From an uncultured Bacteroidota bacterium (GTDB lineage Bacteria > Bacteroidota > Bacteroidia > Flavobacteriales > Flavobacteriaceae), in assembly GCA_902581145.1 (NCBI GenBank), contig CACHNE010000002.1, forward strand, positions 83,531 to 119,440: DNA of 35,910 nt, in the 5' to 3' direction. Below, piece after piece: positions 5,051 through 15,492 of this stretch (positions are counted from its first letter, which is position 1; each line of letters begins with the position of its first letter). The translations under genes and the position numbers were made by a program. Below the pieces are notes generated by a model, which ran no database searches, had not been told where the DNA came from, and saw only the letters and a program-made list of their open reading frames with translations.

Positions 5051-6358
5051 ATGCAAGCTTTTAGAATAAAAGGTGGAAAAAAATTAAAAGGGGAGGTTAG
5101 ACCCCAGGGCGCTAAGAATGAGGCCCTTCAAATCATTTGTGCAACTCTCTTGACACCTGAGAAAGTAATCATCAACAATATTCCTGATATTATCGACATA
5201 AATAAGCTCATTTCATTATTAATATCCCTTGGGGTAAAAGTCGAAAAATTAAATTCAAATAAATATTCATTTAAAGCTGATAATATTGATCTTGATTATT
5301 TAAAGTCAGAACAGTTTAAAATTGATGGTAAAAGTTTAAGAGGCTCAATAATGATTGTGGGTCCGCTTCTTGCCAGATTTGGGAAAGCATATATTCCTCG
5401 ACCAGGTGGTGATAAAATTGGAAGAAGGAGATTGGATACTCATTTCGAGGGTCTTATTAAGCTTGGTGCTAAATTTTCCTATAATAAAGAAGATTATTTC
5501 TATGGAGTTGAATCAAAGAAGTTAAAAGGCGCATACATTTTATTAGATGAAGCATCAGTAACTGGAACAGCTAATGTTTTAATGGCATCTGTACTTGCTG
5601 AGGGTAAAACAACAATATATAATGCAGCTTGTGAACCTTATATTCAACAACTTTGTAAGCTATTAAGTTCAATGGGTGCAAATATTAGTGGTGAAGGATC
5701 AAATCTATTAACTATCGATGGTGTAAGTTCGTTAGGAGGTGCAGAACACTCAGTCCTTCCAGATATGATTGAAATAGGAAGTTGGATTGGATTGGCTGCT
5801 ATGACTAAAAGTAATATTAGGATAAAGGATGTAAGTTGGGAAAATCTAGGGGTTATTCCTAATGTTTTTAGATCCTTAGGAATATCCCTTATTAAAGAAG
5901 GAGATGATATTGTAATTCCAGAGCATGACAAGGGTTATGAAATAAGTAATTACATTGATGGATCGATTTTATCTATTTCTGATGCCCCTTGGCCTGGATT
6001 TAGTCCAGATTTATTAAGTATAATTTTAGTCATTGCTACTCAGGCACGAGGAAGTGTTCTTATACATCAGAAAATGTTTGAAAGTAGACTCTTTTTTGTA
6101 GACAAACTAATTGATATGGGTGCTAAAATAATATTATGCGACCCTCATCGCGCAACCGTTATTGGTCATGATTTCAAATCCTCGTTAAAAGCTACCACAA
6201 TGAGCTCGCCAGACATAAGAGCAGGGATTTCACTTCTTATAGCTGCACTTTCTGCTAAAGGTGTATCTGTTATTCAAAATATTGAGCAAATTGACAGAGG
6301 TTATGAAAATATTGATGAAAGGCTAAAAACACTTGGCGCATCAATAGAAAGAATCTAA
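5051..6358 (+). CDS. murA: UDP-N-acetylglucosamine 1-carboxyvinyltransferase (MurA)
   Basis: MurA adds enolpyruvate from phosphoenolpyruvate to UDP-GlcNAc, the first committed step of peptidoglycan synthesis. The 435-residue protein has the full two-domain EPT fold. Landmarks are GAKNEALQ (residues 20-27, with the UDP-GlcNAc-binding Lys-Asn), GPLLARFG, DPHRATVIG and the closing GYENIDERLKTLGA. The loop that usually carries the fosfomycin-reactive cysteine reads RPGGDKIGRRRLDTH, so the residue is Asp121 (codon 5411-5413). In other MurA enzymes with Asp at this place, fosfomycin does not bind covalently. The stop overlaps the convergent M20 gene by 4 bases. Confidence 0.96.
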   Translation: MQAFRIKGGKKLKGEVRPQGAKNEALQIICATLLTPEKVIINNIPDIIDINKLISLLISLGVKVEKLNSNKYSFKADNIDLDYLKSEQFKIDGKSLRGSIMIVGPLLARFGKAYIPRPGGDKIGRRRLDTHFEGLIKLGAKFSYNKEDYFYGVESKKLKGAYILLDEASVTGTANVLMASVLAEGKTTIYNAACEPYIQQLCKLLSSMGANISGEGSNLLTIDGVSSLGGAEHSVLPDMIEIGSWIGLAAMTKSNIRIKDVSWENLGVIPNVFRSLGISLIKEGDDIVIPEHDKGYEISNYIDGSILSISDAPWPGFSPDLLSIILVIATQARGSVLIHQKMFESRLFFVDKLIDMGAKIILCDPHRATVIGHDFKSSLKATTMSSPDIRAGISLLIAALSAKGVSVIQNIEQIDRGYENIDERLKTLGASIERI

Positions 6359-7785
6359 TTTTGATTTATTGGCGGAGGACCATCAATCATTGGTTTGTAT
6401 ACATGATCACCTTTTCTCATTAGGAACTCATCTTTAACTTCCTTGATTAGTTTATCGCTTTTAAATAAATCTGACATTGTAAAAGCCATTGCTTTTGATG
6501 CGTAGATTGCGCCTTTGTGTCCAATACTCATGCCACCGCATGCTACAACTGCCCATGAGTGCCATGGAGTTTCGTAAGGGGCTGTTGTGACAGATAAATT
6601 AATATTAGGAACATTCCAGCTTACATCACCAACATCGGTTGAGCCACCACCACCATTAATTATTGTTTCTCTTAATGGATATATCTTACCATTTAAACCA
6701 ACTTGTGGTTTATCAAGAGTTAACTGTAATTCTTTGGCAAATTCAATCTCGTCTTTATCATATTGAATTGGACCTAAAAGCTCTAAATTATCCTGCATTA
6801 TTTCACCTCCTCGTCTGTTTACTAAAACCTCATATATTCCGGAGATTAATGTCACTTTATGATCAACATTTGCAAGAATCGCAGCTCCTTCTGCCATTTC
6901 CATAACTCTTTCATACACAGTTGTCATTCCAGCTCTATTGGAATCACGTATACGAACCCATACTTTTGAATAATCAGGAACAACATTAACCACCTTTCCT
7001 GCATCTTGAATATGATAATGCATTCTAACAGTAGGTTGAACATGTTCGCGATAATAGTTTATTGCTGAGGTATACAATTCTAGTGCATCTGAGGAACTTC
7101 TTCCATTCCAAGGATCCATTGAAGCATGGGCTGCTTGACCAAAAAACTCAACCTGAAAATCTATTAATGATAATGTCGATTGAACATCAGCTTCTGTATA
7201 ATATCCAGGGTGCCAGCTTATATTTACATCCACATCATCCCATAATCCAGCATCTACCATCCAGATTTTACCAAAGAATTTTTCCTCAGAAGGGGTCCCA
7301 AAAAACTTTATAGTACCCTTTAGATCTCCTTTCTCAATTTGTTCTTTTATCGCTATAGCAGAAGCAAGACTTGCAGCTCCAAATAAATTATGACCACATC
7401 CGTGTCCATTTCCACCATCAATTAAGGGTTTTTTTGACGGGGTAGTATCCTGAGATAATCCTGGAAGAGCATCAAACTCACCTAAAACACTAATAACTGG
7501 TTTACCTTCTCCGTAAGTTGCAACAAATGCTGTTGGCATTCCAGCGACACCTCTTTCGAGTGTAAAACCATTAGCCTCTGCATAATCTGAAAGAAGTTTA
7601 GATGATTCATGTTCATTGAATGCGGTTTCTGCTAACTCCCATATTTTATCACTTATCTTTATGATTTCTTCTTCATGATTTTCGATAGATTGAATAATAT
7701 TTTTTTTTGTTTGATTGTAATCTTGAGAATAAACAGTGATGCTATATAAGAATAAGAATGATAAAATTAATTTTGTGAATTTCAT
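6355..7785 (-). CDS. Secreted M20 amidohydrolase, AbgB-like
   Basis: A 476-residue metal-dependent amidohydrolase of the M20/AbgB group, whose members cleave amides such as p-aminobenzoyl-glutamate or N-acyl amino acids. A clear signal peptide (residues 1-21, hydrophobic core ILSFLFLYSITVYS then Q) sends it to the periplasm. Visible features are WELAETAFNEHESS, VLGEFDALPGLSQ (first metal-ligand region), GHGCGHNLFG, PSEEKFFGK, and the dimerisation domain after about residue 200 starting near WHPGYYTEADVQS. The late block GGGGSTDVGDVSW is typical of AbgB. The substrate cannot be told from sequence. It lies 30 bases downstream of the photolyase cluster on the same strand and may be read through from it. 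Confidence 0.85.
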   Translation of the reverse strand: MKFTKLILSFLFLYSITVYSQDYNQTKKNIIQSIENHEEEIIKISDKIWELAETAFNEHESSKLLSDYAEANGFTLERGVAGMPTAFVATYGEGKPVISVLGEFDALPGLSQDTTPSKKPLIDGGNGHGCGHNLFGAASLASAIAIKEQIEKGDLKGTIKFFGTPSEEKFFGKIWMVDAGLWDDVDVNISWHPGYYTEADVQSTLSLIDFQVEFFGQAAHASMDPWNGRSSSDALELYTSAINYYREHVQPTVRMHYHIQDAGKVVNVVPDYSKVWVRIRDSNRAGMTTVYERVMEMAEGAAILANVDHKVTLISGIYEVLVNRRGGEIMQDNLELLGPIQYDKDEIEFAKELQLTLDKPQVGLNGKIYPLRETIINGGGGSTDVGDVSWNVPNINLSVTTAPYETPWHSWAVVACGGMSIGHKGAIYASKAMAFTMSDLFKSDKLIKEVKDEFLMRKGDHVYKPMIDGPPPINQN

Positions 7786-7815: not shown

Positions 7816-9111
7816 TTAGTCTAAATATTTTTTATACGTGTAAAGACACCTCTCTCTAGCAATTTTATGATCAATTATCTCATCTGGATAATCAGATGAA
7901 TCGCAATCTACCCATTTGTTTATATAGACTCGTTTTTTATCAAATCTGGTTATTTGAGTATGAGGATTAAAGATTCTAAAATAAGGAGCAGCATCAACTC
8001 CAGAGCCGCTTGCCCATTGCCAATTACCAACATTACTAGACATTTCATAATCGTTCAGTTTAAGAGCAAAATATTTTTCTCCTAGCCTCCAGTCAACAAG
8101 CAGGTGTTTACATAAAAAACTGGCGGTAATCATTCTAACTCTATTGTGCATAAATCCGGTATTATTAAGTTCTTTCATTCCAGCATCAACTAAAGGAAAT
8201 CCAGTTTCTCCTTTTTTCCATGCTTCTAAAGAATTGGGCTCGTTTAACCACACAATTTTATCATATTTAGGTTTAAAGCTATTCGTTGCAGTATGAGGAA
8301 AATGATATAAAATCTGCATAAAAAATTCTCTCCATATCAATTCATTCAAAAAAGTTTCATCTTTGAAGCTTAATAGTCCAGAAACAACCTTTCTGATACT
8401 TACGGTACCAAATCTTAGATAAGGCCCAATCTTTGAGGTTGAATTTAGGGAAGGAAAATTTCTTGTTTCAGCATATTGTTCAACAATTTTACTGTTTAAT
8501 TTAAAAGGCTCGATTTTATTTTTGTTTTCATAAAAACCGTAGTTTTTTAGATTTAAAAGTTTGGAAATAGATTTATCATAAAAGTTACTAGTAACCTTTT
8601 TTTCGTTAATGCATGTTAAATCTTCATTGAAAATACTTTTCCATTTTCTCATGTATGGAGTGTAAACAACATATGGTTTTCCGTCGTCTTTAACAACTTC
8701 GTTTTTTTCAAAGATTACCTGATCTTTAAATGACTTAAACTCAACATTTTTATCTGATAAAATTTTCTTTATCGAATTGTCCCTTGATATCGCATAAGGT
8801 TCATAGTCATTATTGGTGAAAACAGTATTTATTTTATATTCTGAAGTAATTTTGTTGAATATTTCTGTTGGATTACCCTTAAAAACAGTGATAGAAGAAT
8901 TAAAATCTTTTTTTAAATCTTCATTTATTTTTTTTAGATTATCATATATGAAATTTATCCGCCTGTCATCATGAGGAAGTTTATCAGTTATAGAGGTGTC
9001 ATAAATAAATAAGGGAATAACCTTGAGTTTTCCACTTGTTGCTTCAGATAATCCTGAGTTATCATATAGCCTTAGATCTCTTCGAAACCAAAAAATATTT
9101 AATTCTTCCAT
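7816..9111 (-). CDS. phrB: Class I deoxyribodipyrimidine photolyase (CPD repair)
   Basis: This flavoenzyme uses blue light to split cyclobutane pyrimidine dimers. The 431 residues cover an N-terminal antenna-binding Rossmann domain (starting NIFWFRRDLRLYDN) and a C-terminal FAD/DNA-binding domain. The electron-transfer tryptophan triad matches E. coli W306, W359 and W382 as W288 (IVWLNEP), W341 (DWRLGEKYF) and W364 (NWQW). N360 matches the CPD-type Asn378, and DAAPYFRIFNPHTQ is intact. All signs point to an active CPD photolyase rather than a DASH cryptochrome. It is the last gene of the cluster, and its ATG shares one base with the SRPBCC stop (TAATG). Confidence 0.93.
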   Translation of the reverse strand: MEELNIFWFRRDLRLYDNSGLSEATSGKLKVIPLFIYDTSITDKLPHDDRRINFIYDNLKKINEDLKKDFNSSITVFKGNPTEIFNKITSEYKINTVFTNNDYEPYAISRDNSIKKILSDKNVEFKSFKDQVIFEKNEVVKDDGKPYVVYTPYMRKWKSIFNEDLTCINEKKVTSNFYDKSISKLLNLKNYGFYENKNKIEPFKLNSKIVEQYAETRNFPSLNSTSKIGPYLRFGTVSIRKVVSGLLSFKDETFLNELIWREFFMQILYHFPHTATNSFKPKYDKIVWLNEPNSLEAWKKGETGFPLVDAGMKELNNTGFMHNRVRMITASFLCKHLLVDWRLGEKYFALKLNDYEMSSNVGNWQWASGSGVDAAPYFRIFNPHTQITRFDKKRVYINKWVDCDSSDYPDEIIDHKIARERCLYTYKKYLD

Positions 9112-9572
9112 TATAATCTTCCGAAGATTTCAATTAATTTTTTTTCTCTGTATTTAAAAATTTCATCAAGTTTTGGTTTTACCAAAAACGGATGAAAAAA
9201 TAAACCAATTAAACCAAAGGGCAGAGAATAATCTAGAATATCTATTATTTTAACACCCCCATCAATAATTTCAAATTTATGCTTATGATGCCAAAATTTA
9301 TATGGTCCAAATCTTTGTTCATCGACAAAAAAACTATTTTCCTTAACATGAGAAATCTCAGTAACCCATCTCATTTTAATTCCTAGTAAAGGAGTTACAT
9401 TATATTTGATTATTTGACCTGAATACATTTTTGTATACTCCAAGTCAATTATATCGAAACCCATATAATTTGGGGTGATAATTTTGAGATTCTTAGGATT
9501 GCTAAAAAACTCCCAGCATTCTTCTATTGTAATCGGTAAATTGATAGATTTTTCTAGTCTAAAAATCTTCAT
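9111..9572 (-). CDS. SRPBCC family protein, photolyase-associated
   Basis: A 153-residue SRPBCC (START/Bet v1-like) protein with the family entry INLPITIEECWEFFSNPKNL (residues 10-29) and ITPNYMGFDI. The block VDEQRFGPYKFWHHKHKFE is typical of the subgroup often found next to photolyase genes and sometimes labelled a cell-division inhibitor. It presumably binds a hydrophobic or flavin-like ligand; no catalytic residues can be named. It overlaps the glutathione peroxidase stop by 4 bases (ATGA) and the photolyase start by 1 base, so it is almost surely translated from the same message. Confidence 0.82.
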   Translation of the reverse strand: MKIFRLEKSINLPITIEECWEFFSNPKNLKIITPNYMGFDIIDLEYTKMYSGQIIKYNVTPLLGIKMRWVTEISHVKENSFFVDEQRFGPYKFWHHKHKFEIIDGGVKIIDILDYSLPFGLIGLFFHPFLVKPKLDEIFKYREKKLIEIFGRL

Positions 9573-10126
9573 TTGATATAGTTCGTAATTTTAGAACTCA
9601 TAGGACTTGTTAGAGAGTACCAATAATCTATTAGATTTCCATCTTTATCAACCAAATACTTTTGAAAGTTCCATTTTACACTTGAGGATTTTCTACCGTT
9701 AATCTCCTTTGAAGTAAGCCATTTATAGAGTTGGTGTTGATTAGAGCCCCTAACAGAAATTTTTTCTGTCATTGGAAATGTTACATCATATTTTTCTGAA
9801 CAAAAAATTGATATTTGTTCTTCGGTTCCAGGCTCTTGAGCTCCAAATTGATTACATGGCACCCCAATTACTACAAGTTTGTCAGAGTTTTCATTGTAAA
9901 GCTGTTGTAAATCTTTGTATTGTCTTGTAAAGCCACAATTTGAAGCCACGTTAACAAATAAAATGAACTTTCCTTTGTATTCATTTAGATTTATTTTATT
10001 GCCATCAATGCTATTGATAGGTATATCATATATAGACATAGGAGTGTTATTTAATTTTTTTGAATCAAAATCTCCATTAATGAGAGAGAGACCAACTAAT
10101 AATATTATTTTAAGTGTTTTTAACAT
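9569..10126 (-). CDS. Glutathione peroxidase family protein (thioredoxin-like)
   Basis: A 185-residue peroxidase that reduces hydrogen peroxide or lipid peroxides with thiols. The catalytic tetrad of Cys-type enzymes is complete: C64 (VASNCGFTRQY), Q93 (CNQFGAQEPG), W152 and N153 (VKWNFQKYLVDKDG). Cys rather than selenocysteine is encoded. In this family the electron donor is often thioredoxin rather than glutathione. A hydrophobic start (residues 5-16) suggests a signal peptide or membrane anchor, although no good cleavage site is evident. It sits between the SDR and SRPBCC genes of the photolyase cluster, which fits a role against photo-oxidative stress (inference). Confidence 0.92.
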   Translation of the reverse strand: MLKTLKIILLVGLSLINGDFDSKKLNNTPMSIYDIPINSIDGNKINLNEYKGKFILFVNVASNCGFTRQYKDLQQLYNENSDKLVVIGVPCNQFGAQEPGTEEQISIFCSEKYDVTFPMTEKISVRGSNQHQLYKWLTSKEINGRKSSSVKWNFQKYLVDKDGNLIDYWYSLTSPMSSKITNYIK

Positions 10127-10131
10127 ATTAA

Positions 10132-10815
10132 CTAGCTTTTAAAAGATACTATACCAGCATCCATGTTAAATATTTGACCAGAAATAGAAGAGGCGTCTTC
10201 TGAAATTAAAAAAGAGGCCATTTTAGCGACTTCATTAGATGAAAGGATTTTTTTAAGTGGGTGTCTCTCAACCATATTTTCGATTACTTTATCATTTCTG
10301 AGTATTTTTGAAGCAAGTTCTGTATTAGTAATGGTTGGAGCAATGGCATTAATCCTAACTTTTGGTGCAAGCTCTGATCCTAAAGTTTTGACAAGACCAT
10401 CAATACCTGATTTTGCAACTGAAACAGAAGCATGATATGGCATTCCAAGTTTTGTAGCTACTGTACTAAATAGAAGTATAGACGCTGACTCTGATTTTTT
10501 TAGCAAGTTTAAATACTTTTTTATAGCTCTTACAGCTCCAATGACATTAAGCTCAAAATCATTTCTAAAGTCATCAAGACTTAGTGTGGAGATTGGCTTT
10601 AGATTGATTGAACCAGGACAATATATCAAACAATCAACAAAGTCTAAATCTGGGTAATCGTCTACTAATGCATCAAAATTATGAAAAGTGTAATTGTCGT
10701 GACTAAAATCTGTTTGGTTTCTACTTAAACAAACCACTTTATGATTTTCCACAACCTCACTTACGATTGATTTTCCAATTCCTTTGGTTCCTCCAATGAT
10801 AACAATATTCTTCAT
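10132..10815 (-). CDS. Atypical short-chain dehydrogenase (SDR), photolyase-associated
   Basis: A 227-residue Rossmann-fold SDR. The nucleotide-binding motif GGTKGIGKS (residues 8-16), the catalytic-type Asn90 (FELNVIGA), Ser117 (LFSTVA) and Lys135 (SVAKSG) are visible, and INAIAPTITNTE follows as in SDRs. The residue four before the lysine, normally the catalytic tyrosine, is Val131; a tyrosine occurs only at 127. The usual NNAG is YCPG. The protein may therefore bind NAD(P) without standard oxidoreductase chemistry, or use other residues. It shares one base with the preceding 78-aa gene (TAATG) and is followed after 5 bases by the peroxidase gene. Confidence 0.85.
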   Translation of the reverse strand: MKNIVIIGGTKGIGKSIVSEVVENHKVVCLSRNQTDFSHDNYTFHNFDALVDDYPDLDFVDCLIYCPGSINLKPISTLSLDDFRNDFELNVIGAVRAIKKYLNLLKKSESASILLFSTVATKLGMPYHASVSVAKSGIDGLVKTLGSELAPKVRINAIAPTITNTELASKILRNDKVIENMVERHPLKKILSSNEVAKMASFLISEDASSISGQIFNMDAGIVSFKS

Positions 10816-11051
10816 TATGCTCCTGGTCTTCCTTTTAGTCTCTTTTCGACCTTTCTTTTGATAAGAGTAAGTCTTTTCATCATTTCCATAATTTCAGGGT
10901 CTTTAGTTTCCTTGTAGATTTCATTTAGATTCAGGATTAGACTCTTAACCTCTCTTGATGCAACTATCTTTTCATTGGTACTTTTATATACGTGCCTTCT
11001 ATTTTCAAATTCGGTTGCCTTTTCTACAATTTCAGTTTCTTTTACTTCCAT
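10815..11051 (-). CDS. Hypothetical protein in photolyase cluster, 78 aa
   Basis: I do not recognise this protein. It is 78 residues long, highly charged and predicted to be almost all helix, with no signal peptide and no cysteine. The N-terminal third is rich in glutamate (VKETEIVEKATEFENRR) and the C-terminal third is basic (LTLIKRKVEKRLKGRPGA), so a nucleic-acid or protein contact is possible. It starts with ATG at 11049-11051, overlaps the TIGR03643 gene by 20 bases and shares one base with the SDR start. This strict packing is the main evidence that it is real. Confidence 0.7.
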   Translation of the reverse strand: MEVKETEIVEKATEFENRRHVYKSTNEKIVASREVKSLILNLNEIYKETKDPEIMEMMKRLTLIKRKVEKRLKGRPGA

Positions 11052-11325
11052 TTCTTTTACTTATTTTATTTTGGTTTATATTCTTTTGTCGGGAACACTT
11101 AAATCTACCAAGCTGAAAATTTCTTTTAGCCTCATGCTTAGTTTTTCTTCCAGTAACTCTTTTTCTCCAAAGTTTAAAGCTAGAAGACTTGAGATTTTTT
11201 CTCATAATTGAAATAACCTCAGACTCATTTAAACCAAATGTTTTAAAAATAGCATCGAAAGTTGTTCTGTCTTCCCAGGCCATTTGTATGATTCTATCAA
11301 TATCTATGCCATTTAAATTTTTCAA
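11032..11325 (-). CDS. TIGR03643 family protein (DUF2805-like), photolyase-associated
   Basis: A 97-residue protein of the TIGR03643 family, whose genes typically stand near photolyase or cryptochrome genes. The family core is present: IDIDRIIQMAWEDRTTFDAI, FGLNESEVISIMRKNLKSS, FKLWRKRVTGRKTKH (residues 7-64). The tail after residue 65 is basic. The shape suggests a small helix-turn-helix-like DNA-binding fold, but no function is proven. The start is TTG at 11323-11325, one base after the preceding stop; the next ATG would remove the conserved DIDRIIQ start. Confidence 0.85.
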   Translation of the reverse strand: MKNLNGIDIDRIIQMAWEDRTTFDAIFKTFGLNESEVISIMRKNLKSSSFKLWRKRVTGRKTKHEAKRNFQLGRFKCSRQKNINQNKISKRNGSKRN

Positions 11326-11326
11326 T

Positions 11327-11749
11327 TTATATGTGATTATTATGTTTATTAAAGTTGTATTTGTGGTCTAAAACTTTTTTAAAAAAAGTTAAATTTTGCT
11401 TATGGTTTAATTGATTGCTATATCTAATAAAATTACCATCAGAGTGTATTGAAAATGAAGGAGATTTATATACCACTAGCTTGTAAAATGGAATCACCCA
11501 TGTAAATCTCTTTTGTCCCTCAACAACATATACAATTATTCCCTTATTTCTCAATTCAATGTTTGAGTAGATTAAATCATTCTTCTGTTGAATCATTTTT
11601 TTAAAATTTACACTCAAGTCTTCAACAATTAATCTTTTAGACCCAATACCACCAAGCCTGATTGATTTAATTAAATTGAACTTTTTTCCAACAAGATTAT
11701 TTGTTTCAATCTCTTTTTCAATATCATTATATGTGGAGTTATAGATCAT
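11327..11749 (-). CDS. Hypothetical protein in photolyase cluster, 140 aa
   Basis: I cannot assign this 140-residue protein to a named family. It has no signal peptide or membrane segment. A middle region of alternating hydrophobic residues (IIVYVVEGQKRFTWVIPFYK, about residues 70-89, then LVVYKSPSFSIHSDGNFIRY) looks like a beta-sheet or PH-like fold, and the C-terminus has several histidines and asparagines (NFNKHNNHI). Its ATG overlaps the stop of the FeS-type photolyase-like gene by 4 bases (ATGA), and it ends 1 base before the TIGR03643 start, so it belongs to the same message. Confidence 0.75.
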   Translation of the reverse strand: MIYNSTYNDIEKEIETNNLVGKKFNLIKSIRLGGIGSKRLIVEDLSVNFKKMIQQKNDLIYSNIELRNKGIIVYVVEGQKRFTWVIPFYKLVVYKSPSFSIHSDGNFIRYSNQLNHKQNLTFFKKVLDHKYNFNKHNNHI

Positions 11750-13218
11750 ACTAAATTTGATAAATATTCCTCTGAGATTTTGAGATGAGATTCAAGCTTT
11801 TGCTTATCCATTTTGTTTAGTGTTCTTACCATCATTGATAATCTTGGATTGGATTGAAAAAAAGACTGATTTTTATATATAAACCTCCAGTAAAGGCCAT
11901 CCCAAATTTTCTGCCAATCTCCCTTTTTATAATCACCCATTTTCATAATATAGTTGCTGCTACTTATATATGGTTTTGTAGACATTAGACCCCCGTCAGC
12001 AAATTGACTCATACCATAAACATTAGGAACCATAACCCAGTCATATGAATCAATAAAAAACTCCATAAACCATTTATATACATCATCTGGGCGAATCTCA
12101 CATAAAAACATAAAATTTCCAATTACCATCAATCTTTCAATGTGATGTAAATAAGCATTATCATTAACTTTATTTATGCAGTCATCAATCGGTTTAATTG
12201 CTGTTGTAGCATTGTAAAAGGCTTTAGGCATTTTCTTATCGAAATTCCAATAATTTCTAGTCCTTTCAATGCTTCCTTTTGCAACATAAATACCTCTTAT
12301 AAATTCCCTCCATCCGATTATTTGTCGAACTATTCCTTCAAATGAATTAATTGGTATGCTTTTTTTAATACCATATTTATTTAATTCATCAATGACATAT
12401 TTAGGGGTTAATAATCCAGAGTTAATAAGAGGAGACAGTAAGCTGTGATTAAGAATTGCTTCTTTCTCAACAATTGCATCTTCGTAATCACCAAATTCAG
12501 CAAACCTTTCATTTAAAAAATCATTAAACCAATTTTTAGCTGATGTAAAATCAGTCGGGTAGGATATTGCACCATTTAAAACTCCGTAGTTTTCACTGAA
12601 ATGTGTATTCACATAATTTATCCCATCTTCATAAAATTCTTTATTTTCTTTTGGATATCTAATAGTTGGAGGAGTTTTAGACTTGGGGTATTTTTTTCTG
12701 TTCTCGTCATCATAAGTCCATTTGTCACCTTTAGGATCGTTGCCAACCATTAAAATATTCATCTTCTTCCTTTGTAATTTGTAAAAACTAGTTTGGAAAT
12801 ATTTCTTTTTTGAAGGATTAAAGAAAACTTGATTCTCTGCTTCGGTGTTTAAAAATTGCAACGATTCGATTCGATTTATTTTTATAGAATCAATATTATT
12901 AATTCTTTTTTCAAGCCAATTGTCACAAGGATCTATATAATTTATTTTTTTAATATTATTTTTTGAAAGCTTGTCTAAAAGAACCGTAATATCAGAATTT
13001 TTATCACTTGAGTTAATATACTCTACTTCATCAAAATATTTTAAACAGTAATCGTAGTATTTTTTCATACTAACCCTATGAAAAAAAATCTTTTTCTTGT
13101 GGAATTTATATTGTTTGAAAAAAAGAAACTCTTCAATTAAGTACGTTTTGAACTTATAATTGAATAGGGGAGATTTTTCAAAAAGTTGATTAGGAAATAT
13201 AATGTTTACTTCTTCCAA
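11746..13218 (-). CDS. FeS-BCP/CryPro-type photolyase-like protein lacking most Fe-S cysteines
   Basis: A 490-residue member of the prokaryotic (6-4) photolyase/cryptochrome group (Agrobacterium PhrB, Rhodobacter CryB). The N-terminal domain starts NIIFPNQLF; the FAD-binding half holds [10 protein letters not shown] (300-309), [17 protein letters not shown] (356-372), [18 protein letters not shown] (393-410) and [10 protein letters not shown]. Members normally bind a [4Fe-4S] cluster through four cysteines. Here only the first is kept (C347, DDCINKV). The segment between KMGDY (430) and GLYWRF (441) is shortened and has none of the other three. The start is a TTG inside the end of the DUF2256 gene (29-base overlap). 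Confidence 0.9.
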
Positions 13219-13339
13219 TTTTACTGCATTTTTTACTACAATAAATCACGTTATCCCAGTCTCGCTTCCATTTTTTTCTCCATTTGAATGGAAATTTACA
13301 TACAGGACATGTCTTTTCGGGTAGATAAGTTTTTTTCAA
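13190..13339 (-). CDS. DUF2256 zinc-finger-like microprotein, 49 aa
   Basis: A short gene between the flavin reductase and the photolyase-like protein. It encodes 49 residues with the DUF2256 pattern: [13 protein letters not shown] (C11, C14), [12 protein letters not shown] (W20, W24, W28) and YCSKKC (C34, C38). The four cysteines should bind one zinc ion. DUF2256 genes are commonly found beside photolyase or cryptochrome genes; the function is unknown. The only possible start is TTG at 13337-13339, since an in-frame stop lies three codons upstream. This TTG overlaps the TGA of the flavin reductase (TTGA), which suggests coupling by re-initiation. Confidence 0.9.
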
Positions 13340-13956
13340 CTTTTGTTAGGTTTCTGGTATCCTTTTCTGATATTTCTTTTTGGGAATGAGTATCCATCGC
13401 AACCACTAATTGTTGCAACCTTTGCTGAGTTTAGATTTATAAACCCATCCTTAGAAATAAGAGCATCATCCACATTTAATTCAACAATTTTACCCACAAT
13501 TAATCTTGACTTATTGTAATTGATTTTTATCTCTTCTACAAACTTCATTCCAATCTTTATCGAAGAGGAGCTAACAAATGGAGCAGGGAAACCATTGATA
13601 GTCTCTGATGAAATATTTGCGATATCAAATTCAGAAACGTCTCTGTCATATTTAGCTGAGGTATGGTGGGCCTGATCAGCAAAGTCTTCTTGTACAGAAT
13701 TAATGGTGTAATATGAGTTTTGTTTAATATTTAAATAAGTGTGTCTTGGGACAATTTCTGTTGGTCTTAAAAAAAAACCTAACAAAGGGGGGGTTGAACC
13801 AAGATGTGTTATCGAACTAAATACAGCTAAATTCTTTACTCCTTTATCCGAAATTGTTCCAATTAAATTTGCTGACTTGTATCCTGAGCAAGAATTAATT
13901 AAATTAATTCTGAATATTTTATCAAGATTTTCAATTTGCTCTTCGTCAAAATGCAT
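13336..13956 (-). CDS. Flavin reductase family protein (FMN-binding split barrel)
   Basis: A 206-residue flavin reductase-like protein that would reduce FMN or FAD with NAD(P)H or bind FMN. The split-barrel signatures are visible: [20 protein letters not shown] (about 29-48), [12 protein letters not shown] (residues 56-67), [11 protein letters not shown] (residues 78-88) and the later [14 protein letters not shown] and IVGKIVEL strands. There is no signal peptide. Its ATG directly follows the aquaporin stop, and its TGA overlaps the DUF2256 start. Since photolyases need fully reduced FAD, supplying reduced flavin is an attractive role, but this is inference from context. Confidence 0.87.
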
Positions 13957-14583
13957 TTACTTTAAAACTTTTTTGTAAAGAAAAGATGCAAGAACTGAAC
14001 CAATTATACCTGTAATCAAAAAATAAACAAAAAAGTCACTAGAAGATACATTACTACCAATTACTTGTGGGTCAATAAAACTTAATAAAGACGGGCCAAA
14101 GCTTACAGCGGGATTAAAAACAGCCCCGGAGATATCACCAACCGAAAAAGCTCCAGCAGTAACTGTAAGACCTATCGCCAACCCATAAAACTGATTTCCT
14201 TTTAGACTTTCGTTGAGCGCCACATTAAGTATTACAAAAACTAATAAAAACGTAAATAAAATTTCTGCAACAAAAAAACTTTGTATTTCAGTAGTTTTAG
14301 AAACTACTGAAAATGAATCTTGTCCAAGTCCAATCATGGTGTATACCGCAACTACTGAACCTGTTAATTGACTTGCGATATATTTACCAGATTCTTTTAA
14401 ATCAATTTGGTCGTTTATATACATTGCTAGGGTTACAACTGGGTTATAATGTGCTCCTGAAATATGAGCTCCCATGTAAACTAAAACTGCTAATCCAAGA
14501 CCTATTGCTATTGGATTTTCTGTTAAACCAATGATTAATACGAGAAAAAAAGTACCGATTAGTTCTATTATATATTTTTTCAT
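13957..14583 (-). CDS. MIP family channel (aquaporin) with atypical filter
   Basis: A 208-residue inner-membrane channel with six membrane spans and two half-helices. The first signature is GAHYNPVVTLA (N47-P48-V49, NPV in place of NPA), the second GAVFNPAVSFGP (N157-P158-A159). The residue after the second NPA is Val160; in most water and glycerol channels it is the selectivity-filter arginine. Plant tonoplast TIP1 channels also have Val here and pass urea and hydrogen peroxide as well as water, so a peroxide or small-solute role is possible (inference). It is the first gene of the photolyase cluster, divergent from the DUF2911 gene across 54 bases. Confidence 0.92.
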   Translation of the reverse strand: MKKYIIELIGTFFLVLIIGLTENPIAIGLGLAVLVYMGAHISGAHYNPVVTLAMYINDQIDLKESGKYIASQLTGSVVAVYTMIGLGQDSFSVVSKTTEIQSFFVAEILFTFLLVFVILNVALNESLKGNQFYGLAIGLTVTAGAFSVGDISGAVFNPAVSFGPSLLSFIDPQVIGSNVSSSDFFVYFLITGIIGSVLASFLYKKVLK

Positions 14584-14594
14584 GAATAATTTTT

Positions 14595-14602
14595 TAAATT
14601 TG
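14595..14602 (+). promoter_or_regulatory. Possible -7 box for the DUF2911 gene
   Basis: TAAATTTG matches the Bacteroidetes -7 consensus TAnnTTTG exactly and lies 35 bases before the ATG at 14638. No clear -33 TTG is seen at the usual spacing. On the minus strand, TAGGTTTC within the same 54-base gap is a one-mismatch candidate for the photolyase cluster. Confidence 0.4.
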
Positions 14603-14637
14603 AAACCTAATTCGAATATAAAAATTATTTAAAGAAC

Positions 14638-15492
14638 ATGAGAGCAATTATTTTCACTTTGTTATTATTCACAGTTAATTTGAGTTTTTCTCAAATTAAC
14701 ACACCTAGATTTAGCCCAGCTTCTGAAGTTGAACAAATGGTTGGTTTAACCGAAATTGAGATTGAATACAGTAGACCATCGATGAGAGGAAGAGAAGTAT
14801 TTGGAAATTTAGTTCCTTTTGGTAAAGTTTGGAGAACTGGAGCAGATAATAGCACTAAGATTAGTTTTGATACTGATGTCATAATTTCCGGAAAAACAAT
14901 TCAGTCAGGAACCTATTCAATTTTTTCTATTCCTAACAAAGAAAGTTGGGAGATTATCTTTTACTCTGATGTTGAACTTTGGGGAGTTCCTAGAGATTGG
15001 TCAGAAAATAAAATAGTGTTTTCATCAATGTTTGATGTTAAAAAGTTAAAGAAACGTAATACCGTAGAGACTTTTACAATTTCTTTTAATGATTTAACTA
15101 ACAACGATGTAAATATGAGTATTTCTTGGGAAAATACGTTAGTAGATATCAAAATTGAAGTTCCTACAAGATCAATGGTTGAAAAGGATATTAGTAGTGT
15201 CCTTAATGATAATCCAAAGGCCTCTGATTATTATGCTGCAGCCGTTTTTTACAGACAAGAGAATGTTAATTTATTTCAAGCATTATTGTGGATGAATAAA
15301 GCAATAGAAATGTTTGAAAATCCAAGATTCTACCATTACAGACAACAATCTTTGTTAATGGCAGCTAATAACAAATTCTCCGAGGCAATTGATGCCGCAA
15401 ATAAATCATTGGATGATGCAATTAAGTCTGATAACCAAGGTTATGTAAAAATGAATAGAGAGTCTATTGCTGAATGGTCTAAGAAGCTTTAA
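14638..15492 (+). CDS. DUF2911 domain protein with C-terminal TPR-like helices
   Basis: A 284-residue exported protein. The signal peptide covers residues 1-19 (TLLLFTVNLSFS then Q). The DUF2911 domain follows: IEIEYSRPSMRGREVFGNLV (about residues 41-60), PFGKVWRTGADNSTKISF (residues 61-78) and SGTYSIFSIPNKESWEIIFY. The C-terminal part (about residues 185-280) is helical and resembles one or two TPR units (ASDYYAAAVFYRQ, LLMAANNKFSEAIDAANKSL). DUF2911 is widespread in Bacteroidetes and its function is unknown. The 3' end overlaps the convergent symporter gene by 14 bases. Confidence 0.88.
   Translation: MRAIIFTLLLFTVNLSFSQINTPRFSPASEVEQMVGLTEIEIEYSRPSMRGREVFGNLVPFGKVWRTGADNSTKISFDTDVIISGKTIQSGTYSIFSIPNKESWEIIFYSDVELWGVPRDWSENKIVFSSMFDVKKLKKRNTVETFTISFNDLTNNDVNMSISWENTLVDIKIEVPTRSMVEKDISSVLNDNPKASDYYAAAVFYRQENVNLFQALLWMNKAIEMFENPRFYHYRQQSLLMAANNKFSEAIDAANKSLDDAIKSDNQGYVKMNRESIAEWSKKL

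Follow-up and report, generated by a model that had tools for sequence, protein, structure and literature searches.

A reduced flavobacterial photolyase locus, with photo-oxidative-stress genes, as a candidate operon of an uncultured marine bacterium

The DNA analysed here (the window) is a stretch of 35,910 nucleotides from an uncultured Bacteroidota bacterium of the Flavobacteriaceae (GenBank assembly GCA_902581145.1, contig CACHNE010000002.1, forward-strand positions 83,531–119,440), part of an incomplete genome (1.29 Mb, 68.5% complete). Eleven minus-strand genes at 7816–14583 likely form one operon, a streamlined photolyase and photo-oxidative-stress locus in a rhodopsin-bearing marine bacterium. 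Their tight packing on one strand had been proposed in a first-pass annotation made from the bare sequence; all eleven open reading frames (ORFs) were confirmed, with overlaps of 1–29 bases or gaps of 0–5. The genes, in the order of transcription, and the flanking features are as follows (aa, amino acids; CPD, cyclobutane pyrimidine dimer; dN/dS, ratio of non-synonymous to synonymous substitution).

13957..14583, minus: aquaporin/MIP, 208 aa, first gene of the putative operon (PF00230, E 1.7e-33)
13336..13956, minus: flavin reductase-like split-barrel protein, 206 aa (PF01613, E 5.8e-18; PDB 3fge, E 8.8e-51)
13190..13339, minus: DUF2256, small Cys-rich protein of 49 aa with a TTG start (PF10013, 65 bits against a cut-off of 25)
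11746..13218, minus: PF04244 (DPRP) photolyase-related protein, 490 aa, of a clade without the iron–sulfur cluster cysteines (FeS-less) (E 4.2e-43; 148.2 bits against a cut-off of 22.1)
11327..11749, minus: U140, a 140-aa family
11032..11325, minus: DUF2805/TIGR03643, 97 aa, with a predicted four-helix core, perhaps a helix-turn-helix (HTH) (TIGR03643, 122.3 bits against 66.55)
10815..11051, minus: U78, 78 aa, strongly conserved (dN/dS 0.06 over 8 of 14 pairs)
10132..10815, minus: SDR oxidoreductase, 227 aa (PF13561, E 1.5e-34)
9569..10126, minus: glutathione peroxidase family protein (GPx), 185 aa, with a hydrophobic N terminus (PF00255, E 4.2e-39; PDB 6vpd, E 2.4e-43; HYR1 3cmi, E 2.1e-40)
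9111..9572, minus: SRPBCC-like protein, 153 aa
7816..9111, minus: class I (CPD-type) photolyase, 431 aa (PF03441, E 6.6e-68; PF00875, E 8.7e-40; nearest PDB entries the photolyases 2e0i and 1owl)
14584..14637, no strand: divergent intergenic region of 54 bases between the operon and the DUF2911 gene, the presumed promoter
14638–15492, plus: DUF2911 gene (PF11138), divergent upstream neighbour
6355–7785, minus: M20-type amidohydrolase (TIGR01891 over cut-off; PF01546), downstream neighbour

Eleven packed genes conserved across the genus

From the coordinates, the aquaporin and flavin reductase genes abut (gap 0). Overlaps follow at flavin reductase/DUF2256 (4 bases), DUF2256/PF04244 (29), PF04244/U140 (4), DUF2805/U78 (20), U78/SDR (1), GPx/SRPBCC (4) and SRPBCC/CPD photolyase (1), with gaps at U140/DUF2805 (1) and SDR/GPx (5). 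Profile searches bear out most family labels first given to these genes (MIP, flavin reductase, PF04244, TIGR03643, SDR, GPx, class I photolyase and DUF2256); the FeS-type label of the PF04244 protein falls, there being no Fe–S cysteines. The SRPBCC label is borderline: a relative in locus L085 scores just below the PF03364 cut-off (23.1 against 23.4 bits), the window copy exceeds no family cut-off, and it has no PDB match at E 0.1. The class I photolyase contains both PF00875 and PF03441 and reaches no NCBIfam cut-off (best 321.7 against 884.6).

The PF04244 gene is full length in 16 of 21 genus genomes, the window's own included. All eleven genes, in the same order and on the same strand, are present at 14 of the 15 other genus loci; the fifteenth (L063) meets a contig end after its fifth gene. 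Median dN/dS between the window and genus members is 0.06–0.13 per gene (6–15 of 14–15 pairs per gene, after pairs with saturated dS were dropped), demonstrative of purifying selection on each gene. G160, a genus genome with no PF04244 gene, retains CPD–SRPBCC–GPx running into a contig end; in G152, G154, G156 and G161 (56–79% complete) neither operon photolyase was found, the remaining operon genes not having been searched there. Rhodopsin is carried by 16 of the 21 genomes.

The aquaporin stands at the locus in 15/15 other genus loci and, among L075–L174 (of which L095–L098 are genus genomes again), otherwise in L140 alone. We rejected the L140 aquaporin as a counterpart, its neighbours being different: a DUF6428 protein and a protein with no Pfam match that looks ArsC-like. 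Downstream, the amidohydrolase starts 30 bases past the CPD photolyase gene and occupies that place in 9 of the 14 genus loci seen whole, too few for us to count it as a twelfth core gene; it also follows the CPD photolyase in G160 and L080, and is perhaps an old neighbour on its way to being lost. Two more photolyase-family genes lie away from the operon in the genus (L196–L201), one CRYb-like (~490 aa) and one shorter (~370 aa).

The eleven genes would be transcribed together from the presumed promoter in the short divergent intergenic region. An alignment of 16 genus upstream regions reveals conserved AT-rich blocks, in which no regulator site was identified. One block, TTTCAAATTTAA, sits shortly before the aquaporin start in 15 of the 16 regions (14584–14637 in the window). 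Its other strand resembles the consensus of the Bacteroidetes −7 box, and the block may serve the divergent DUF2911 gene. A consensus sigma-70 promoter scan gave 43 hits against a shuffle mean of 43.1, and a terminator scan 2 against 2.5. The TetR_C_23 profile was silent in genus and control genomes alike.

A larger form of the locus in other Flavobacteriaceae

To place the locus among relatives, we use the best 80 of 568 confirmed loci from named genomes, retrieved with an FeS-less query; many are cut by contig ends, making gene frequencies lower bounds, and genes in relatives were called as six-frame ORFs beginning at the first start codon. Among these 80, ten window genes recur at nine loci outside the genus (L106, L107, L125, L127, L128, L134, L139, L140 and L145) in the window order—flavin reductase, DUF2256, PF04244, U140, DUF2805, U78, SDR, GPx, SRPBCC, CPD—with other genes interspersed. 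The hosts are three named Winogradskyella species, one uncultured Winogradskyella, two Polaribacter, one uncultured Flavobacterium and two less closely named metagenome-assembled genomes. Their larger order begins with TetR, ABC1 kinase, flavin reductase, NmrA-like/DUF2867, DUF2256, DASH cryptochrome, PF04244 and a second photolyase-family protein, and continues with U140, DUF2805, FolE, U78, SDR, GPx, TspO, SRPBCC and CPD photolyase. FolE is present in all nine; TetR and ABC1 were not seen in L128 and L145. DASH, TspO, TetR and similar genes were typed by Pfam/NCBIfam in L085 (CIA30 in L079) and elsewhere by similarity, FolE was typed in L106, and 'CPD' matches in distant loci may be other superfamily members.

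Variants of this arrangement occur. G138 (L085) has the same larger set, except that FolE is missing and U78 is present twice; G072 (L079) has a partial locus that includes CIA30 and, at that place, no FolE, U78, GPx, SRPBCC or CPD; G079 (L086) keeps the U140-to-CPD half and has no PF04244 match. In 16 of the best 80 loci, U78 and PF04244 share a strand and are no more than 10 kb apart. An uncultured Polaribacter carries an extra DUF3050 gene (PF11251) between TspO and SRPBCC (L128:16871–17653).

The flanks are also shared. A divergent DUF2911 gene upstream is common to the window and L080, L085, L106, L127, L134 and L140, and a MurA-like gene downstream to the window and L080, L086, L106, L107 and L127, which suggests that the window and larger loci descend from one chromosomal locus. 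The window locus is a reduced form of the larger one, with ten of its approximately seventeen genes plus the aquaporin. Missing from its operon are TetR, ABC1, NmrA-like, DASH, FolE, TspO and the second photolyase-family protein; a gene resembling the last of these sits elsewhere in genus genomes, FolE and TspO not having been searched elsewhere. A survey of neighbourhood conservation, set beforehand as a possible refutation of the first-pass proposal, thus found the arrangement conserved both in the genus and, enlarged, in other Flavobacteriaceae.

The packing could instead be a by-product of genome streamlining, in which DNA repair and unrelated redox genes share a promoter and not a function. 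The genome size of 1.29 Mb (at 68.5% completeness), an aquaporin seen at the locus, among the loci examined, in the genus alone (L140 apart), and the two photolyase-family genes elsewhere in genus genomes would all fit this. The same ten-gene order, however, is kept in relatives with larger genomes and with extra genes interspersed, and the grouping is therefore independent of a small genome; DUF2256 and DUF2805, moreover, accompany PF04244 even where they are not adjacent to it (next section). We consider streamlining as the whole explanation improbable.

An FeS-less photolyase-related protein and its small companions

Compared with AfPhrB (PDB 5kcm), the PF04244 protein has Pro343 in place of the cluster cysteine C350 and is missing the loop that holds the other three cysteines. 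It has the PF04244 domain that characterizes FeS-BCP proteins and none of their four [4Fe-4S] cysteines (0/4), ruling out the FeS-type label. Across 114 PF04244 sequences (window plus fetched loci) the cysteine motif is present in 10 and lacking in 104, frequencies biased by the FeS-less query with which most were sought; the set includes four repeats (L095–L098), leaves out the short L093 and has none from L086. FeS-less members made up ~7% of 464 proteins in an earlier count. A FastTree tree separates the FeS and FeS-less sets by an edge with support 1.0, and two positions wholly distinguish them (C and Q in 10/10 FeS; P and E in 104/104 FeS-less).

Full 6-4 repair by AfPhrB needs His366, Tyr424 and Tyr430. 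The equivalents of these lesion-site residues in the window protein are H359, Y417 and Y423 and, together with that of Trp390, they are kept in 114/114 sequences; at the position of the electron-relay residue Trp342, 91 of the 104 FeS-less ones have Tyr. Because the 6-4-associated histidine is kept, we favour a 6-4 photolyase role for the FeS-less protein. By its residues, rather than by direct comparison with PromaPL, the window protein would fit the FeS-less (PromaPL-like) prokaryotic 6-4 photolyase subgroup. Prochlorococcus PromaPL is itself FeS-less and described as a 6-4 photolyase (PMC9178010). A competing proposal assigns CPD repair to the FeS-less picocyanobacterial Phr2 (PMC9426592), which would make the operon a double CPD-repair unit. 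That proposal was inferred from the missing cluster, however, and stands against both the retained histidine and the naming of the Prochlorococcus enzyme in PMC9178010; we judge a double CPD unit to be unlikely. The L085 copy is of the FeS type, in the slot where the nine larger loci have the FeS-less type. Since the two types take one and the same position within the locus, one probably replaced the other in place across Flavobacteriaceae (L085 against L106 and the window).

The small proteins track PF04244 to different extents. Over 148 genomes of the order, we find PF04244 in 54, DUF2256 in 58, DUF2805 in 64 and U140 in 32, after dropping a G028 PF04244 hit that fell short of the cut-off and contained a stop, and a G123 U140 hit with seven stops. 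PF04244 occurs together with DUF2256 in 53 of its 54 genomes (42 within 10 kb) and with DUF2805 in 52 (15 within 10 kb); thus both DUFs follow PF04244 even when non-adjacent. The Fisher values, 4e-33 and 1e-25 respectively, are too small, as related genomes are taken as independent. DUF2805 occurs without PF04244 in twelve genomes and DUF2256 in five; U140 and PF04244 are together in 23 and near each other in 9. Among 14 control genomes, PF04244 is accompanied by DUF2256 in Caulobacter and Synechococcus elongatus and occurs without it in Haloferax. DUF2805 was found in none of the 14, and is therefore no general PF04244 partner. Divergent DUF2805 copies (E ~1e-20) occur in G002, G018, G124 and G143, genomes with no PF04244 match, and similar second copies in G048, G056, G064, G114, G119 and G128; these may represent a second DUF2805 subfamily.

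For U140 and U78, Pfam searches at E 0.1 return no family, nor does NCBIfam for U140. U140 is present in 18 of 395 genomes of a phylum sample, one being a weak match with a stop. Its AlphaFold2 model (pLDDT 93.3, a confidence score) comprises helices, seven consecutive strands and a long C-terminal helix. PH-like domains are seven-stranded barrels capped by a C-terminal helix, a definition that the element order of the model fits. Foldseek returns mostly PH/PTB/FERM-type folds at probabilities up to 0.99, the best hit having E 0.037 and a TM-score of 0.46, along with some fatty-acid-binding proteins. A profile search against the PDB gives nothing at E 1; the predicted fold is perhaps PH-like. 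In PHROGs there are weak matches for U78 (E 9e-4) and for DUF2256 (E 5e-4, an HNH endonuclease profile). One published listing puts DUF2256 in the TRASH clan, a group of metal-binding domains (PMC4047054).

The DUF2805 model has a four-helix core above 90 (mean pLDDT 74), with Foldseek likeness to sigma region 4/SorC-type HTH domains only at E>1. A rare architecture fuses DUF2805 to a Nudix/NADH diphosphatase (PMC6856373), and a nudix–photolyase operon of Prochlorococcus is mentioned in the literature; a link of DUF2805 to nucleotide clean-up is conceivable. The helical core also bears on a photosensory or regulatory operon, in which the FeS-less PF04244 protein would be a cryptochrome-like photoreceptor with DUF2805 as its DNA-binding output, leaving repair to the CPD enzyme alone. 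Rhodobacter sphaeroides CryB, a member of the FeS-BCP group, does regulate gene expression, and the Trp-to-Tyr change in the electron relay would suit a sensor. Against this, the HTH matches exceed E 1, the three lesion-site residues are invariant and PromaPL, a relative likewise lacking the cluster, is on record as a 6-4 photolyase, and we give a sensory role little credence.

Photolyases are mostly regarded as single enzymes. We offer as a tentative and rather unlikely possibility that DUF2256, DUF2805, U140 and U78 are dedicated PF04244 partners (a DNA-binding recruitment helper, a metal-binding helper, an adaptor) on which FeS-less enzymes depend. If so, prokaryotic 6-4 photorepair in Bacteroidota would be a multi-protein system and not the work of a lone enzyme. 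The near-constant company of DUF2256 and DUF2805 in this order, plus U140 and U78 at the locus, provides a short gene list for tests in Winogradskyella and Polaribacter.

Proposed function and comparison with known systems

From the observed presence, conservation and co-occurrence of the genes we infer each functional step of the single light-repair and photo-oxidative-stress operon. In rhodopsin-bearing cells, light would both damage the cell and power its repair. The class I enzyme would repair cyclobutane dimers and the FeS-less PF04244 enzyme 6-4 photoproducts, covering the two main UV lesions. GPx would remove lipid or hydrogen peroxides arising from photosensitised oxidation, its hydrophobic N terminus possibly directing export. 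The flavin reductase and SDR may supply reducing power, keeping flavin and another redox pool reduced, and DUF2256, DUF2805, U140 and U78 could act as accessory factors of the photolyases or of their regulation. The proposal of one light-repair and photoprotection system gains from the larger form, whose FolE, TspO and DASH cryptochrome fit the role, and loses in the aquaporin, seen at the examined loci in the genus alone, L140 apart. The further idea, that the flavin reductase and the peroxidase work on behalf of the photolyases, finds no backing in the published parallels, where a single stress response turns on peroxidase and photolyase side by side. The locus also demonstrates how a streamlined marine bacterium carries a reduced set of the larger locus's genes alongside an aquaporin.

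Several points weigh against the single-operon reading. Gene overlap is to be expected in streamlined genomes and alone is no proof of shared function. The larger locus holds nothing that corresponds to the aquaporin, and in 67 of the best 80 loci, many contig-cut, fewer than nine of the ten shared genes are seen. The regulators of LitR/CarH and ChrR control were sought in the 21 incomplete genus genomes and not found: the ChrR cupin (PF12973) exceeds its cut-off in 0/21, with one weak match below it, and B12-binding PF02607 occurs in 3/21, always in ORFs of 892–922 aa (too long for LitR) and never in a short one. The CPD-repair proposal for Phr2 counts here as well, as does a metagenome correlation study that groups DUF2805 with translation-related domains and not with photobiology (PMC3597751). 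The Shewanella parallel below is in part a promoter prediction.

By analogy, the strongest outside support for the proposed mechanism is the co-induction of such genes in Rhodobacter, Shewanella, Pseudomonas and Vibrio cholerae. The bsaA1–cryB operon of Rhodobacter capsulatus, beside rpoE–chrR, combines a GPx with CryB and two hypothetical genes and is induced by singlet oxygen, as are Rhodobacter PhrB, FolE2 and TspO (PMC7074977). In Shewanella a GPx gene depends on RpoE2, and promoter motifs mark two further candidates, a photolyase operon and an SDR with a photolyase-related gene (PMC4336711). These RpoE–ChrR regulons are proteobacterial and governed by an ECF sigma factor with ChrR, unlike the window's genus, with no ChrR cupin over cut-off. 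Also similar in content are the LitR/PplR blue-light regulons of Pseudomonas, whose light-regulated regions hold phrB, an SDR (in the P. mendocina region), an FAD oxidoreductase, cryB and folE, with phrB, cryB and folE light-inducible in a Pseudomonas with PplR1–PplR3 (PMC9758184); they differ in their B12-type MerR/LOV regulators, and no UfaM is among the eleven window genes. Photolyase-family operons of Vibrio cholerae are induced by blue light (PMC5241685).

With FeS-BCP/AfPhrB the window protein shares family PF04244 and the conserved lesion-site residues and differs in missing all four Fe–S cysteines, as in PromaPL. Our literature search, with most subscription papers and supplementary tables outside its reach, found no paper joining a photolyase with TIGR03643 or DUF2256, and for the wider gene set nothing titled as a flavobacterial study. 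The nearest report, from 2018, is a photolyase proximity cluster in proteorhodopsin-positive marine Flavobacteriia (PMC5932025). Like the window locus, it brings a photolyase and its relatives into close proximity, and it is enriched among Flavobacteriia that carry rhodopsin; unlike the window locus, the text available gives no gene order and names no DUF2256, DUF2805, GPx, FolE or reduced operon, gene annotations being in its supplementary tables. The named parts constitute an already known kind of photo-oxidative repair locus, here in a reduced, genus-conserved variant that includes the four small proteins.

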